From positions 1 through 21,667 of the IMG/VR virus record IMGVR_UViG_3300027752_000130: a DNA stretch of 21,667 nt, one strand, 5' to 3'. Positions 5,459 through 20,487 of the stretch are shown here, one piece after another. Position 1 is the first letter of the stretch; each line of letters starts with the position of its first letter. The notes under the pieces were generated by a model. That model saw only the letters and a program-made list of their open reading frames with translations. It made no database searches and had not been told where the DNA came from. The position numbers were made by a program, and so were the translations under genes. Source of the stretch: a virus.

Positions 5459-8292
5459 TGGCAAAAACTTTCGGTGTACCATTAAATGATAACGTAACAT
5501 ACCAACTGAAGTACCGCAAAATGGCACTTACAGATGAGAATGGAGCACAAGATATTTTAAGAAGTTCTTTTTTGAACAACCAAACCTCGTATATCAGGCT
5601 AGTATCAGGAGTTAACAGCTTACCTGCTTCAGAAGAAGCATACCTTAACAGTGTAATAGCAGCACAAAGAAGTCCATCATATAAGGATGATATTAAAAAC
5701 TACTATGATCAAAAAGGGAAAGATAGTGTATTAGCACAGATGAATATTTTATCTGGAGGAACCGTATACAATAAAATACAGAGCTTAGAATCAGGCAAAC
5801 TACAGGAATTTAGAAAAACCGGATTGGACATAAGTAGGACTACAGAAATTCCAACCAGAAGTTCTTATGAATTTAGTGAAGTAGGTGGATATGTACCAAT
5901 GATGGGGATATCTGATTTTACTATAATATCTAAAAGCCAGTATGGTACACTCAGGGAAGCAGAAATAAAAATAAAAGCTTGGTCAGTAGAACAATTAGAT
6001 ATAATAGAAAAACTATACTTCAAACCAGGTTTTACGATGCTGGTAGAGTGGGGAAATAGTGTTTACCTTGATTATAACGGTCAAATGGAAAATGATGTCG
6101 GATCTATTACTACGGATTTCTTAAAGGCAACTAAGACCATAAAACAGTTAACAGCTGAGGTAAAAAAGAAAAAAAAAGACTCTGGTAATAACTACGATGC
6201 AATGATTGGCAAGGTTATTAACTTCAGCTGGGATTACGGTACAGATGGAAGTTACGATTGTTCAGTTAAAATAATGAGCAAAGGAGAAGTTATAGAGTCT
6301 GTAAAGTCTACGTTCTATACCGGGTACGATGACCAGAAAGGTCACAGAAAATATGTAGAAGGAAATTCATCGGAGTCATCCGGAAAAGCAAAAAAAGATG
6401 ATCACGATCTTCTTCTAGAAGTATTTAAAGCTCTTACTAATACTTCTAAACTAGAAGAATACCTAAAGAAACTATACCCTAAAGATAATAGTATTAAAGT
6501 ATATAAATCAGGTCTAGCTTCTGCAGCAGATACAACAGAAGATAATAGTACAGATCATCAATACTTTATTACTGTTAGAGACTTACTTTACATTCTTAAT
6601 ACCCAAATTTTAGAAAGAGACGATTCTGGAGCAGATGATACAAGGTTTAACCTCGATGTAGAGACACAAAAGTATATTACATTCCCCGGTCACGTATCAG
6701 GTGATCCGTATATCTGCGGTATACCTTACCGTTCGGGTAATATAAAGTTTAAAGAAGGTATTATGCCTTCTGTTAAAGAATTTACTGGGTCAGGGTATAA
6801 ATCTAACGCTAAGATTCCTAAAGAATTAAATGATGCTAAAGGTCTTAAAGCAGAATCTCCTTTAAATATATTAATTAACTTATCATACTTACAGGGAATT
6901 CAAAGGTCGTCATTAGAGAACCTAAAAAATAACGATACCGAAACTTCTATATTTCAATTAGTTAAAACAGTACTGCGGGATGTGAGTACTAGCTTAGGGA
7001 GTGTAAATAGTTTAGATTTACACTTAGAGAAGGACAGCAATGAATGGATCGTAATAGATAGGAAACTATATAATCCAATTAAGGTAGATGATAAACTACC
7101 AACAATTGATATAATAGGACTAGGGTCCTTAGTGACATCCTACGGACTTTCTAGTAAGATCTCAGGAAACATGGCATCTATGTTAGCAATCGCTGCATCA
7201 GCAGGTGATTCAAAACTATCAGGACAAGATAATTTGGTTCAGTTCAATAATGGAGCTATTGATAGATGGGGTAGTAGTAAGACCACTGAAAAAAAAGATA
7301 ACAAAGAATTCCCTAAGGATAGCCTAAGAAATTCAGAAACACGACAAAAAAACAAAATTAAAATCGCTAAAGCATATTATAACTATGCTACAGTTAAAGC
7401 TAACGATAATAGTAATTTTGGTTCAATAGCTATATCTCATAGAGAGGCAATGCAATTCTGCCTTGAAATGCATCAACTTAAAAGTAGAGTAGAACAAAAA
7501 CCTAATTCTACTAATATATTACTTCCTATTGAAATGAACTTAACAATGCAAGGTATTGCAGGATTGAGAATAGGAGAAGCTTTTAGTGTAACTGATGATA
7601 TTCTTCCAAAAAGATATAGAGAAAGAGTTGGATTTGTAATTACAGGAGTCTCTCATAAAATTGGTTCAGACAACAGATGGGCTGTAGATTTAAAAACCAA
7701 CATGTTTATGTTACCGGTTAGAGATGTCGCTGTAGATGTAAACGCTCTAGTGGATTTAACCGTTCAACCAGAACCACCAGGATATAATGATCCAGTAGTT
7801 ATATCGACCGGTGAAACTCCAAATGCAGATCAACTGAGAACAGTAATTAAATCAGCTGGTTTTTCTGAAAAAGGAACAGAGTTAGCTAATGGAGGAGATA
7901 TAACTGCAGATACTTTGAAGATAGGTACTGCCTTGATAAACACAGTGAAATCAGAAGCACCCGGTATTAAGTTAAGATTTACTTCCGGTAATGATAAATT
8001 TCACCAGAATATAACAGCATACACAAGTAGACATAAGGCTGGTAGAGCATTAGACTTTACAATTGTACCTTATTCAGTTAGTAATTACAAGAAAGTATTA
8101 GCAATATTACAAGGATTTGCAGCAGGCGGTAGCGGCTCTGTTAGATTTTTAGATGAATATAAAAAGATGACCGTAAAAGCTTCAGGAGTACATTTCCACT
8201 TCTCTTGGGGACAAGGTTCTGAAGGTAATGCAGAATTGGCACAATCAAGAAAATTAGCATTGGCAGGAAAAATTAAAACTTATACAGCATAA
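5458..8292 (+). CDS. Baseplate hub protein with C-terminal M15-type peptidase domain
   Basis: A 944-aa protein. The N-terminal part includes a beta-rich region (GISDFTIISKSQYGTLREAE, then KLYFKPGFTMLVEWGNSVY) typical of T4-like hub proteins with the gp27 role. A later hub segment ends near GFVITGVSHKIGSDNRWAVDL. After a linker (about residues 760-785) comes a domain matching M15-type D-Ala-D-Ala or endopeptidases: SRHKAGRALDF at 857-867 and GVHFHFSWG at 910-918, giving likely zinc ligands H859, D866 and H914. Such a domain would cut cell-wall peptide bonds during penetration, the job done in T4 by the lysozyme domain of gp5. It overlaps the preceding stop by one base; the next gene starts 2 bases after its stop. 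Hub role: inferred from position and partial recall. Peptidase motif: seen directly. Confidence 0.75.
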   Translation: MAKTFGVPLNDNVTYQLKYRKMALTDENGAQDILRSSFLNNQTSYIRLVSGVNSLPASEEAYLNSVIAAQRSPSYKDDIKNYYDQKGKDSVLAQMNILSGGTVYNKIQSLESGKLQEFRKTGLDISRTTEIPTRSSYEFSEVGGYVPMMGISDFTIISKSQYGTLREAEIKIKAWSVEQLDIIEKLYFKPGFTMLVEWGNSVYLDYNGQMENDVGSITTDFLKATKTIKQLTAEVKKKKKDSGNNYDAMIGKVINFSWDYGTDGSYDCSVKIMSKGEVIESVKSTFYTGYDDQKGHRKYVEGNSSESSGKAKKDDHDLLLEVFKALTNTSKLEEYLKKLYPKDNSIKVYKSGLASAADTTEDNSTDHQYFITVRDLLYILNTQILERDDSGADDTRFNLDVETQKYITFPGHVSGDPYICGIPYRSGNIKFKEGIMPSVKEFTGSGYKSNAKIPKELNDAKGLKAESPLNILINLSYLQGIQRSSLENLKNNDTETSIFQLVKTVLRDVSTSLGSVNSLDLHLEKDSNEWIVIDRKLYNPIKVDDKLPTIDIIGLGSLVTSYGLSSKISGNMASMLAIAASAGDSKLSGQDNLVQFNNGAIDRWGSSKTTEKKDNKEFPKDSLRNSETRQKNKIKIAKAYYNYATVKANDNSNFGSIAISHREAMQFCLEMHQLKSRVEQKPNSTNILLPIEMNLTMQGIAGLRIGEAFSVTDDILPKRYRERVGFVITGVSHKIGSDNRWAVDLKTNMFMLPVRDVAVDVNALVDLTVQPEPPGYNDPVVISTGETPNADQLRTVIKSAGFSEKGTELANGGDITADTLKIGTALINTVKSEAPGIKLRFTSGNDKFHQNITAYTSRHKAGRALDFTIVPYSVSNYKKVLAILQGFAAGGSGSVRFLDEYKKMTVKASGVHFHFSWGQGSEGNAELAQSRKLALAGKIKTYTA

Positions 8293-8293
8293 T

Positions 8294-9271
8294 ATGTGGT
8301 TACCAGCGTTTAAAGTAATTAAAGGATTATTCGCTCTATTAGGGCAATTTACAGTAGCTGCAGATGGAGCTCCTTATGAGGGGCCTTATTATCAAACACC
8401 TCAAGGAAAAACATTTACAGGTAAAGGTCCTACAGAGTCATCACAGGAAATAGAAAAAGTACCAGATCACGAACATGATGAAGAGTTTGCTGGAGAAGGT
8501 AGTACATTCACAGCTGAAAGTTCATACCCCACTCCACAGGATTATAAAACAGGTTACTTTAAGAGATACTTTATACATGATACGAGAAACGGTGAAGTGA
8601 CAGAAGTGTTAAAAAAGAACTACGACTTATCTAAAACGTTTCTCTATATAAAAACCGGTGAAGTAAACTGGGTAGTAGAGAAACCAGTAAAAGATATTTT
8701 TAATCAAGGGTACAACTTTAAAGGAGCAGCATCACGTAATAGAGAAAACATACTTAAATTATCACTACAGGTTCCTAATGTAGATGACTACATAACCGAT
8801 TACGGTAAATTCGCAGACATAGAGTCAGATGTTGAAGGGTATGCATTTGAAGAATTACCACCAAAAGAACAAACAAGAATTATAAAGAAACAAACTCCAA
8901 CAGTTCAACAGCATCCAATTAAGAATGTAAAGCCAAGGTTTAAGCCTAAGAAAGAAAAAACCTTAAAGATAAAAAATAACTTATACACCTCTGGTGGTAG
9001 GTTTAAAGTCAAAGGCTCTACTCAATTCTATAAAGGGTTTTACCATGTACATCCAACTAAAGGAGCAATGGAAGGAGCAGTACATACAGACGAACCTCAC
9101 AGACAGTTAATACCATATAACGGTTCTACCCAGACTCCTCCCTCTGGAGGAAGTACATATTCCGGCGGTGGCGGCGGAGGTGGAGGCGGGTCTCAATACT
9201 TTGACGAAGCAAATAACAACTCAGGTAATAGCTCCCCTAATAATTATATTTCAAGAAATAACAACTATTAG
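8294..9271 (+). CDS. Virion structural protein with glycine-rich C-terminus
   Basis: A 325-aa protein. The first 24 residues are hydrophobic (MWLPAFKVIKGLFALLGQF) but I do not regard them as a proven signal peptide. A segment PYEGPYYQTPQGKTFTGKGP near the N-terminus and FYKGFYHVHPTKGAMEGAVH near residues 250-270 are motifs I have seen in virion proteins near baseplate genes of marine phages, function unknown. The middle is charged, with a Lys-rich linker (about residues 205-230). The C-terminus has nine consecutive glycines within a Gly/Ser-rich stretch (about residues 284-304), then an Asn/Ser-rich tail. It is the last gene of the structural block, 2 bases after the hub gene. A role in the baseplate or host contact is plausible but unproven. 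Confidence 0.6.
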   Translation: MWLPAFKVIKGLFALLGQFTVAADGAPYEGPYYQTPQGKTFTGKGPTESSQEIEKVPDHEHDEEFAGEGSTFTAESSYPTPQDYKTGYFKRYFIHDTRNGEVTEVLKKNYDLSKTFLYIKTGEVNWVVEKPVKDIFNQGYNFKGAASRNRENILKLSLQVPNVDDYITDYGKFADIESDVEGYAFEELPPKEQTRIIKKQTPTVQQHPIKNVKPRFKPKKEKTLKIKNNLYTSGGRFKVKGSTQFYKGFYHVHPTKGAMEGAVHTDEPHRQLIPYNGSTQTPPSGGSTYSGGGGGGGGGSQYFDEANNNSGNSSPNNYISRNNNY

Positions 9272-9306
9272 TTTGTAGCTTAGCTTATTTTTCATATATT
9301 ATATAA
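9272..9306 (+). promoter_or_regulatory. Promoter-like motif, TTTG-N19-TATATT, before the polymerase gene
   Basis: TTTG at 9272-9275 is followed after 19 nt by TATATTATATAA from 9295, with TTTTTCA directly before it. The same arrangement occurs before four other gene starts (11109, 14118, 18333, 21142). A TTTG/TTG element about 20 nt upstream of the second box resembles the -33 element of Bacteroidota promoters. It marks the switch from structural to replication genes. Confidence 0.6.
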
Positions 9307-9316
9307 AAGGTTATAA

Positions 9317-10642
9317 ATGTTTTATATAGTAGAAGAAGAATCAAAACTTAAATTATTAGAAAAGCTAATAAGCACAGGCTGCTATGTTGATATTATTAGC
9401 TCTAATGATAACTACCACCCTAAGTTAACTTTTACTGTAGCAATATATATCAAATGTTTAGACAATTCCAATGGATATATAATACCAATTAAACATGATG
9501 AGGGTATAAATGTAGATAAAAATCGTGTTATAGACATTCTAAAAAACTCCAATAAAGTATATACATTAGATAAGAAAAAATTGCTCTACCATATTAATAT
9601 ACCTGGAGTAATAGATGTATCACTCTTATATTCAATGGTGAAATACCAAAGACTGGAATTCGTAAGAGAGTCCAGCACATTAAACTACTTTTATAGGTTA
9701 CATAGACTAAATAAGAATATAAATCAAATCATTCCGATTTCGAAGTTATACGAAAGCTGTGAAAACCTATTTAATAAAGTACAACACGTAATAGACTATA
9801 CAATCCCAGATGGTTTTGAATTCTATAACCATACAGCAATATCAGTATTTTACCTTATAGAGCAAAACGGGTTAGGGATTAAACATGATTCTTTTATAGA
9901 AAACTTTAATCCACGTGAACCTCAATATAATATACAGGATAACAAAATATTAACTTACTACAACCTATATAATGCTACTTCTAGACCTACTAATGCTTTT
10001 AATTCTGTTAACTTCGCTGCTATACCTAAGAGTGCACAACACAGAGAATGTTTCATTCCAACCCAAGACTATTTTGTTGAGTTCGATTTTGATGGTTATC
10101 ACCTTAGGTTACTTTGTGATCAGATTAAGTACACACTTACCAGTGAATCTGCTCATAAACAATTAGCAAAACATTACTTTGGTACTGAGGATATTACAGA
10201 TGAACAGTATTTAGAAGCCAAACAGATTAACTTTCAAGCTATATACGGAAAGATACCCGAAGAACATAAAGACCTCAAAATATTTAAATTAATACAGGAA
10301 TTTATTGATAATATGTGGTCAGTCTATAAAGAGACAGGAATTGTATGTAATCCACAGTCTGGGAAACCCTTCACAAGTAACCTTAAAGAAATGCATCCAG
10401 CTAAATTAATGAATTATATGATGCAATCGTTGGAGACCTCAAATAATATTCTTATATTAAAAGATATCCTTAAATACTTAGTAGGTAAGAAAACTAAGTT
10501 AGTCCTATATACATATGATGCATTGCTTTTCGATTTTAGTAAAGAAGATGGCAAAGACACATTAGAAGGTATTAAGAAAATACTAGAAAAAGATAATAAA
10601 TACCCAGTAAAATTTAAATACAGTAAAGATTTAGGTTTATAA
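9317..10642 (+). CDS. Family A DNA polymerase, compact and divergent
   Basis: A 441-aa protein with the polymerase core motifs of family A in order. Motif A is FDFDGYHLRLL (residues 256-266; D257 matches Klenow D705). Motif B is KQINFQAIYG (302-311; K302, F306 and Y310 match K758, F762 and Y766). Motif C is TYDALLFD (399-406; D401 matches D882). A segment FNSVNFAAIPKSAQHRECF (228-246) fits the stretch before motif A. Three usual residues differ: Glu710 is His262, His881 is Tyr400 and Glu883 is Ala402; Arg754 may be Tyr298. The first 200 residues look like a decayed 3'-5' exonuclease domain: VDIIS at 24-28, DKKKLLYHI, then VIDVSLLY. The two catalytic aspartates are kept, so activity is plausible. 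T4-like phages usually replicate with family B gp43, so this may be an accessory enzyme. The start ATG has AAAGG 7 nt upstream. Confidence 0.8.
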   Translation: MFYIVEEESKLKLLEKLISTGCYVDIISSNDNYHPKLTFTVAIYIKCLDNSNGYIIPIKHDEGINVDKNRVIDILKNSNKVYTLDKKKLLYHINIPGVIDVSLLYSMVKYQRLEFVRESSTLNYFYRLHRLNKNINQIIPISKLYESCENLFNKVQHVIDYTIPDGFEFYNHTAISVFYLIEQNGLGIKHDSFIENFNPREPQYNIQDNKILTYYNLYNATSRPTNAFNSVNFAAIPKSAQHRECFIPTQDYFVEFDFDGYHLRLLCDQIKYTLTSESAHKQLAKHYFGTEDITDEQYLEAKQINFQAIYGKIPEEHKDLKIFKLIQEFIDNMWSVYKETGIVCNPQSGKPFTSNLKEMHPAKLMNYMMQSLETSNNILILKDILKYLVGKKTKLVLYTYDALLFDFSKEDGKDTLEGIKKILEKDNKYPVKFKYSKDLGL

Positions 10643-19118: not shown

Positions 19119-19919
19119 ATGGCAAAACATGTAGTTGTAAGTCTTAGTGGAGGGATGGACTCCTCAACATTATTACTAAGAGCATTAAAAGAGTATGATA
19201 CCGTAACTGGTATATCATTCGATTATGGTCAAAAGCATAGAGTAGAGCTAGAAAGAGCTCAACAGTTAATTAACTATCTTGCTGATAATGGTCACAAAGT
19301 AAATTATCGTCAAATTCAACTAAACGGATTAGTAGACCTATTAGACTCAGCTCTAGTAGAAGGAGGAGATGATGTACCTGAAGGTCATTATGAAAATGAT
19401 AATATGAAAGAAACAGTTGTGCCTAATAGGAATAAGATGTTTGCTTCTATTACTCAAGCAGTCGCTTTATCTATAGCTAATAAATCAGAAGAAACTTGTG
19501 ATATTGCTTTAGGTATTCATGCTGGAGATCATGCAGTATACCCAGACTGTAGACAGGAGTTTAGAGATGCAGATGATGCTGCTTTTAGAGAAGGAAATTG
19601 GGATGCAGATAGAGTAGGGTACTTTACTCCTTATTTAGATACTGATAAATTTGGAATCTTACAAGATGGAGAAATACTTTGCGCTAAATTAAAAATCGAC
19701 TTTAATGAAGTTTATAAGAGAACGAATACATCATATAAGCCTTATCCTTCGGGAAATAGCGATTATAAGTCTGCTTCTAGTGTTGAGAGGATTGAGGCTT
19801 TTATTGCTCTTGGCAGAAAAGATCCCGTACAGTATGAGGATGAAACTGGAGAAGTGGATTACGAGGTAGCAGAGTCGCATGTAAAACAAATACTTGCAGA
19901 TCATGTTGGTCCATGTTAG
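19119..19919 (+). CDS. queC: QueC-like 7-cyano-7-deazaguanine synthase lacking the zinc cysteines
   Basis: A 266-aa PP-loop ATPase. The ATP site is SLSGGMDSS (8-16), followed by ISFDYGQKHRVEL (32-44) and VVPNRNKMF (100-108), all typical of QueC, which makes preQ0 from carboxy-deazaguanine with ATP and ammonia. Near the C-terminus, standard QueC has four cysteines holding zinc; the aligned stretch TNTSYKPYPSG then NSDYKSASSVER keeps the flanking TxxSY and VER sequence but replaces the cysteines by S205, D215, S218 and S221. The protein is somewhat longer than bacterial QueC (about 230 aa). Phages use preQ0 to make deazaguanine DNA, or feed tRNA modification. A QueD-like gene lies at 21451; QueE and GTP cyclohydrolase are not in the window. 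Confidence 0.85.
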   Translation: MAKHVVVSLSGGMDSSTLLLRALKEYDTVTGISFDYGQKHRVELERAQQLINYLADNGHKVNYRQIQLNGLVDLLDSALVEGGDDVPEGHYENDNMKETVVPNRNKMFASITQAVALSIANKSEETCDIALGIHAGDHAVYPDCRQEFRDADDAAFREGNWDADRVGYFTPYLDTDKFGILQDGEILCAKLKIDFNEVYKRTNTSYKPYPSGNSDYKSASSVERIEAFIALGRKDPVQYEDETGEVDYEVAESHVKQILADHVGPC

Positions 19920-19926
19920 TAGTAAG

Positions 19927-19935
19927 CTATTTATA
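19927..19935 (+). promoter_or_regulatory. Candidate late promoter motif CTATTTATA before the structured RNA region
   Basis: Exact match to the 9-mers at 873 and 3312, placed 8 bases after the queC stop and before about 480 bases without a protein gene. If it is a promoter, it could start transcription of the structured RNA and the tRNA. Confidence 0.35.
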
Positions 19936-19972
19936 TGCTATTCACAATAATTTTTAAATATAGTATTAAGTA

Positions 19973-20082
19973 ATGAGCACTGAAAGATCAAACAACGGAA
20001 ACACCCAATTAAACTCGGAAAGAGGTAACCATAACCAAAGGGTTAGCAGGTACGTTATGCTGGGTAAATCCAGAAAAGTAAT
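19973..20082 (+). other. 5' part of the gene-poor region, simple hairpins only
   Basis: I see only small hairpins: TAACC-AAAG-GGTTA (20032-20045) and CTGGG-TAAA-TCCAG (20060-20073, closing pair G-U). The second ACCCAAT copy in the region (20003-20009) could pair with ATTGGG at 20197-20202 in competition with the core. A 48-codon frame (19973-20116) exists but looks non-coding. It may be the 5' domain of the RNA that follows. Confidence 0.3.
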
Positions 20083-20393
20083 CTGGGACAATTCTAGACG
20101 GAATCGAACCATTTAAGTAACAACAGTACTTATCACGCTACCCATAAGAACAGCGTCCCAGGGTAAGTCTTTTGTAGGAGAGACAGTAAAGCTGTAATTG
20201 GGAAGTAGAGAGAATTAATTAGCGAAAAAAGGTTTGTAGTAGCTAGGCGTCTCTAATTGCACCCAATCAGAAACCTTGAAAGACCCGAAATGTCTCTCTT
20301 ATTAAAAATAACTAACTCGTAAGAGTAGTAAACCAAATATCAATGCAGAGATATCCTTGGTACGCTGACAATGTTCGGGAGTTGTTTAGTTAT
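20083..20393 (+). ncRNA. Candidate structured noncoding RNA with two predicted pseudoknots
   Basis: This stretch carries no credible protein gene, looks richer in G+C than the surrounding genes, and has many complementary segments. A 7-bp helix pairs 20083-20089 with 20155-20161. A 10-bp helix pairs 20176-20185 with 20291-20300. Inside it 20197-20202 pairs with 20262-20267 (ATTGGG/CCCAAT), and the enclosed AAGGTTT (20229-20235) pairs with AAACCTT (20271-20277) outside that helix: a pseudoknot. An 8-bp helix pairs 20308-20315 with 20386-20393 and encloses CTC-GTAA-GAG and a 10-bp hairpin at 20332-20361. CCCGAA (20284-20289) pairs with TTCGGG (20374-20379), linking the two domains. The tRNA-Gln starts 8 bases later, so RNase P could free the 3' end. 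Large phage RNAs such as GOLLD and ROOL also lie near tRNAs; I cannot match it to a named family. Confidence 0.5.
20084..20159 (-). other. tRNA-Asn-like (GUU) element on the minus strand, degenerate or coincidental
   Basis: Read on the minus strand there is a perfect 5-bp anticodon-type stem AAGTA/TACTT with loop CTGTTGT, giving U33 and anticodon GUU. A D-like arm has a GGG-containing loop, GGTTCGATTCC resembles a T arm, and the ends pair (GGGAC/GTCCC). The total span, 76 nt, is right for a tRNA. But the TTCGATT loop is out of register with the acceptor stem, and the in-register T stem is weak with a poor T loop. It may be a decayed tRNA gene, or part of the + strand RNA whose helices look the same from both strands. 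Confidence 0.25.
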
Positions 20394-20401
20394 ATTTTAC
20401 C

Positions 20402-20474
20402 TGTCTTATGGTGTAATTGGTAACACGTCTGTTTTTGGTACAGAAGAGTTCAGGTTCGAGACCTGATGAGACAA
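20402..20474 (+). tRNA. tRNA-Gln (anticodon UUG)
   Basis: A full cloverleaf: acceptor TGTCTTA/TGAGACA (7 bp, one G-U), D arm GTGT/ACAC with loop AATTGGTA, anticodon stem TCTGT/ACAGA with loop TTTTGGT (U33, anticodon UUG, reads CAA), and T arm CAGG-TTCGAGA-CCTG. The discriminator is A. The 3' CCA is not encoded, so host CCA-adding enzyme is needed. CAA is the common glutamine codon in these AT-rich genes, so the tRNA would help late translation. It lies directly after the candidate RNA and 13 bases before the next gene. Confidence 0.93.
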
Positions 20475-20487
20475 CAAATAATAAGTT

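Follow-up and report, generated by a model that had tools for sequence, protein, structure and literature searches.

The gap between queC and tRNA-Gln in the viral DNA analysed here (the window, the whole stretch and record of 21,667 bases) holds M1, a pseudoknotted RNA of roughly 120 bases that belongs to a new RNA family; what is new is the family itself, which is absent from the databases searched. M1 combines a knotted core with nearly invariant joining strands, usually occurs once per genome across phages of diverse hosts, and is absent from Rfam. The record carries T4-like replication and recombination genes (a UvsX-like recombinase, a DnaB-like helicase and ribonucleotide reductase), and the features around and within M1 are collected in Table 1.

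Table 1. Features of the queC to tRNA-Gln region, in window positions (paired strands separated by a slash)
Feature	Positions	Strand	Basis or remark
queC	19119-19919		upstream of the 47-aa gene
Small protein gene, 47 aa	19973-20116	+	18 homologues without frameshift; third-position excess; outside the RNA
M2 hairpin	20126-20169	+	helices 20128-20134/20162-20168 and 20135-20139/20152-20156; just 5' of M1
M1 core pseudoknotted RNA	20177-20299	+	covariance model; covariation on 27 and 63 sequences; gap-free anchored test
P1	20178-20185/20291-20298		outer helix, encloses the pseudoknot
J1/2	20185-20191		AGTAAAG (family AGURAAG); first A paired in the window copy
P2	20192-20202/20262-20270		UA bulge at 20195-20196
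P4	20220-20223/20242-20245		closes the loop GAAAAAAGGTTTGTAGTA
P3 pseudoknot	20229-20235/20271-20277		crosses P2, directly after it
J3/1	20278-20290		GAAAGACCCGAAA
Spacer, M1 to tRNA	20301-20400	+	blastn against all fetched loci: no relatives; helices there unsupported
tRNA-Gln, anticodon TTG	20402-20475	+	ARAGORN; Rfam RF00005; downstream of M1, same strand

Limits, architecture and conservation of M1

A sequence-only reading had proposed a pseudoknotted RNA between queC and tRNA-Gln, and the RNA and both flanking genes are found, but the limits given for it (20083-20393) and several of its pairings are wrong. That reading also took the RNA for a possible new or diverged class of phage RNA, and here it has good support: the pairs covary, the RNA is widely distributed, and no Rfam 15 family matches. 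The 7-bp crossing pairing that it described (AAGGTTT with AAACCTT) is present in the sequence, covaries, is conserved in relatives and corresponds to P3. The second crossing pairing, of 6 bp (CCCGAA at 20284-20289 with TTCGGG at 20374-20379), is likewise complementary, but its 3' side lies in the relative-less spacer and the helix has no support in relatives; a partner at 20374-20379 is impossible in most tRNA-flanked relatives because the next tRNA begins 4–11 nt past P1. The statement that the region holds no credible protein gene is wrong at its 5' end; the non-coding part is about 20117-20401 and ends at the tRNA-Gln start. The proposed RNA began within the upstream small gene, so that its first 34 nt (20083-20116) are the coding 3' end of a conserved ORF. 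This ORF is kept without frameshift in 18 related phage loci with differences concentrated at the third codon position (253 versus 161 and 124); its unannotated product, encoded between queC and the tRNA region, ends in ..GKSRKVIWDNSRRNRTI and has no match in PHROGs. A late promoter had also been placed before the RNA, but the one exact TATAAATA in the sequence shortly upstream (19928-19935) lies on the minus strand, and no sigma-70-like site was found on the plus strand upstream of the RNA. As to the dense long-range helices on which the proposal leaned, the single-sequence fold only modestly beats shuffles (z of -1.8 for 19920-20405 and -2.0 for 20083-20393), and its long-range helix from 20151 competes with the conserved local hairpin M2. 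The case for an RNA thus rests on comparison.

We define the M1 family by P1, the strand AGURAAG, P2, a P4 loop with bases that pair as P3 right after P2, and GAAAGACCCGAA. All of these are found in the window copy, which matches the covariance model at 20175-20300 with 98.4 bits while being part of its training set. An inner helix (20209-20212/20251-20254) has apparent support in close relatives by reading of the sequences and was left out of the pair counts. In most copies P1 (window 20177-20185 and 20291-20299) covaries yet is biased, with a purine-rich 5' strand and a pyrimidine-rich 3' strand, and a T run often follows it on the 3' side.

Helices P1 to P4 are supported by covariation in relatives. 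In a MAFFT alignment of 27 long-type sequences standard pairs fill 94.6% of cells, compared with 76.2% after shuffling and 36–52% when the strands are slid, both members change in 17 of 24 pairs, and the covariation score reaches 0.565 versus 0.209; kinship inflates such counts, yet the slid controls retain kinship and score far lower. For 63 diverse sequences the corresponding values are 89.0% versus 70.6% shuffled, 18 of 24 pairs, and 0.448 versus 0.174. None of 500 shuffles equalled the percentages or scores in either alignment. A gap-free test anchored on the conserved words alone finds the P2 triplet paired in each of the 112 copies; its third position shows four types of pair, and GC/AU and UA/AU/CG make up most of the outer P3 pairs. 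The covariance model, which was built without the pseudoknot, matches phages outside its training set, among them (E values in brackets) Pseudomonas Astolliot (8e-17), Klebsiella RaK2 (2.6e-16), Erwinia pEp_SNUABM_01 (2e-15), Klebsiella KP12 and Erwinia Hena1 (both 4e-14), Xanthomonas XaC1 (9e-13) and Pectobacterium PM2 (4e-9). An origin of the pairings by chance, in a spacer that is coding or has no function, would agree with a single-sequence z of only about -2 and with the 34 coding nucleotides at the start of the reported region, and it may hold for 20301-20400; for 20177-20299 it is ruled out by the covariation and the distant model matches, and we give this explanation almost no weight.

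Distribution and tRNA context

Scans of IMG/VR with patterns taken from the core yield about 110 distinct canonical phage copies, and relatives of the queC locus carry short RNAs upstream of tRNAs that share the M1 core. Hosts of the large phages that bear M1 include Bacteroidota, Gammaproteobacteria, Rhizobium and Listeria. A tRNA lies within 300 nt of 81 of the 110 canonical copies, always on the strand of M1 (58 of 58 upstream and 70 of 70 downstream tRNAs), with usual gaps of 3–4 nt on the 5' side and 5–7 nt on the 3' side; in PM2, a T4 relative, M1 stands at the start of the tRNA cluster. For about a quarter of the canonical copies, some of them on loci that are short fragments, no tRNA was detected within 300 nt, and in XaC1, KP12 and RHph_N28_1 M1 is distant from the annotated tRNAs; co-processing with tRNAs is therefore not the sole route. 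Of 21 matching records 19 carry a single copy, and the two additional matches are weak (E about 0.02); a second search gave a single copy in each of 13 records. RaK2 stands twice among the 21 under two names, one record (L311) is common to both searches and some records are incomplete.

Bacterial chromosomes are nearly without M1 in the samples searched. Among the matches listed from a GTDB pattern scan none has a convincing second conserved strand, and one of 395 Bacteroidota genomes has a weak, divergent M1-like match (locus L447, about 1450-1640, E 1.5e-4) that may belong to a mobile element.

To judge from its strand, its spacing and its single copy, M1 would come from the tRNA operon and be freed by the enzymes that trim the neighbouring tRNAs. 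We give about an even chance to our preferred reading, in which M1, once released from a tRNA operon, persists as a stable RNA of the phage and acts in trans. M1 would be transcribed with the tRNA operon, and the flanking tRNAs would be cut off it by RNase P together with host tRNA 3'-end processing, putative 3' release by RNase P at the tRNA being a plausible step. P1, P2 and P3 would meet in a compact core, and the conserved joining strands at this three-helix meeting point may be the working part that acts in trans. The target is probably a component of the machinery for translation or RNA processing; the argument, a weak one, is that certain phage tmRNAs contain the M1 core as well, after the tag frame. 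The role of non-tRNA stable RNAs in phage tRNA clusters is an old question that now becomes testable in the culturable phages RaK2, PM2 and Hena1.

The same context would suit a cis-acting insulator or stability element, for processing or protection of the neighbouring tRNAs or tmRNA, with no separate function in trans: M1 shares the strand of the tRNAs in every case and fits closely between them, and the module occurs inside tmRNAs and beside other RNA modules. A generic insulator, however, would not need a nearly invariant junction, more than one per array would be expected, and M1 also occurs away from annotated tRNAs, so that we consider such an element unlikely. A riboswitch-like, ligand-binding regulator of the operon is improbable. 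H-type pseudoknots with conserved joining strands are common in riboswitches, but the neighbouring genes vary between phages, M1 often sits between two tRNAs and not in a leader, and no Rfam riboswitch matches it.

Subtypes, permuted copies and neighbouring RNA modules

A scan on the P4 loop and P3 that is blind to the joining strands recovers 80 distinct copies, of which 35 are canonical, 38 permuted and 7 unclear. Other subtypes have joining strands of the form GAAAUACCCAUU, hairpin-AAUACCC, or hairpin-ACAGACC with AGGAGCG; the joining strands of the window copy are one subtype among several. Since the blind scan revealed these others, the way in which the first set was collected explains part of the invariance of GAAAGACCCGAA within it. 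In permuted copies the order of parts is P4 with the first strand of P3, the second strands of P2 and P3, J3/1, a closed P1 hairpin, J1/2 and the first strand of P2. Carriers include the crAss-like phage phi14:2, Rhizobium RHph_N28_1 and Listeria cka15, among others. In ten permuted copies, with segments set by hand, P2 strands form on average 7.6 bp with their own partner versus 3.5 bp with that of another copy, and none of 20000 random pairings did as well. Expression of the cka15 relative was considered and finds no support in one published study (PMC12282133): the most transcribed non-coding stretch located there, 26,236-26,727, is not the M1-like site at about 30.5 kb.

A permuted pseudoknot of M1 type also lies inside phage tmRNAs, after the tag frame (L115 2752-3221, L453 2315-2722, L492 2867-3324, L530 8946-9385 and L449). 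In a 382-kb phage (L468, 3112-3203, minus strand) a skipping-rope RNA (RF02924) is nested in J3/1 of a permuted M1.

The main and strongest rival to a trans-acting RNA sees in M1 a self-cleaving ribozyme of a new class, predicted to cut tRNA-array transcripts and to split some phage tmRNAs in two, with its catalytic site where AGURAAG and GAAAGACCCGAA form the junction of P1, P2 and P3. A compact conserved junction, a pseudoknot and natural circular permutation, the traits of M1 that favour this idea, are typical of self-cleaving ribozymes, and circular permutation is more usual in ribozymes than in trans-acting RNAs, which counts against the trans reading. Conserved positions together with pseudoknots or junctions have served as a criterion for ribozymes (PMC10085705), P1 begins about 3 nt past the upstream tRNA, and the theta (HDV-like) ribozymes of gut phages provide a tRNA-adjacent precedent (PMC10879173). 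These usually lie within +/-1 nt of the tRNA end (PMC10879173), whereas the distances of M1 to tRNAs are close and not exact; in addition M1 is single in each record even in arrays of many tRNAs, its junction sequence is not fixed across subtypes, and no Rfam ribozyme family matches it. We regard self-cleavage as possible but doubtful, and are equally tentative about the wider proposal that M1 and its permuted relatives form a new class of natural ribozyme, with self-cleavage or some other catalytic activity, that shapes tRNA-array and tmRNA transcripts in virulent phages of very different hosts. The conserved core, predicted to lie at the three-helix junction, and the natural permutation make M1 a good candidate for a catalytic RNA or one with specific binding.

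M2, the hairpin next to M1 in the window, is found near letter-identical in about 20 other phage contigs, where it adjoins tRNAs, other small hairpins or M1, and compensatory pair types occur at seven positions of its helices. Several kinds of small structured RNA thus share phage tRNA arrays, and M1 is the one with the widest distribution in this analysis.

Further RNA-like modules were observed in phage tRNA arrays beside M2 or M1: a hairpin GAGG..AGTTGCAAA..CCTC, an element ACCTCGATGTTAACC..ACAGAGGT and an element GGATAT..AAGGATTG..GGTCGCCT, with positions at L434 11862-11933, L441 12991-13110, L098 4087 (a minus-strand match) and L032 5049-5100. Separately, tRNA-Leu genes with inserts of about 37–69 nt after position 37 occur at L008 4801-4912, L010 4971-5083 and L045 4877-5021; ARAGORN misses them by default and finds them only with introns allowed, and the inserts are far shorter than usual group I introns.

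Comparison with known RNAs

In the window, the tRNA alone passes the Rfam 15 gathering scores, and even up to an E of 10 no credible match covers M1 or M2; a set of nine loci, most with relatives, likewise gives nothing credible up to an E of 1. ARAGORN and Rfam together find tRNA-Gln alone in the window and no tmRNA. A search with four core strings across 5.4 million open-access papers returned a single paper, an unrelated one, subscription journals and preprints lying outside its scope. The idea that GAAAGACCC mimics 23S rRNA 2057-2065 was dropped, the likeness being within chance.

Some permuted relatives of M1 lie within phage tmRNAs (RF00023), downstream of the tag frame, whereas the window M1 has neither a tRNA-like domain nor a tag frame of its own. 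Skipping-rope RNA is likewise small and structured and once lies within J3/1 of a permuted M1; as a general partner it was rejected, with M1 at 0 of 31 other skipping-rope loci and skipping-rope RNA in 1 of 40 records searched, and RF02924 has no match in the window. The stable RNAs C and D of T4 (species 1 and 2) are small RNAs of a phage tRNA cluster, a setting that M1 has in the T4 relative PM2, but the core words are absent from them by eye, and homology was rejected, the model finding nothing in T4.

Theta ribozymes share with M1 a small size, a pseudoknot and a position beside phage tRNAs on the same strand. HDV-like RNAs form a nested double pseudoknot with P2 as the outermost helix, cleavage 5' of P1 and a catalytic C in J4/2. 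In M1, by contrast, the outer P1 encloses the pseudoknot and the order of helices differs, and no Rfam HDV model matches in the window up to an E of 10.

Finally, GOLLD and ROOL are structured phage RNAs of unknown function that often lie by tRNA islands (PMC12286853), and the resemblance in context drawn in the sequence-only reading is a fair one. M1 itself is neither: both are far larger, the mismatch in size and pairings noted in that reading stands, and the window has no match to RF02032 (GOLLD) or to the Rfam ROOL model. What M1 has in common with them is that of a structured RNA near tRNAs, and in L311 a single tRNA array carries both GOLLD (6014-6428) and M1 (9237-9362).
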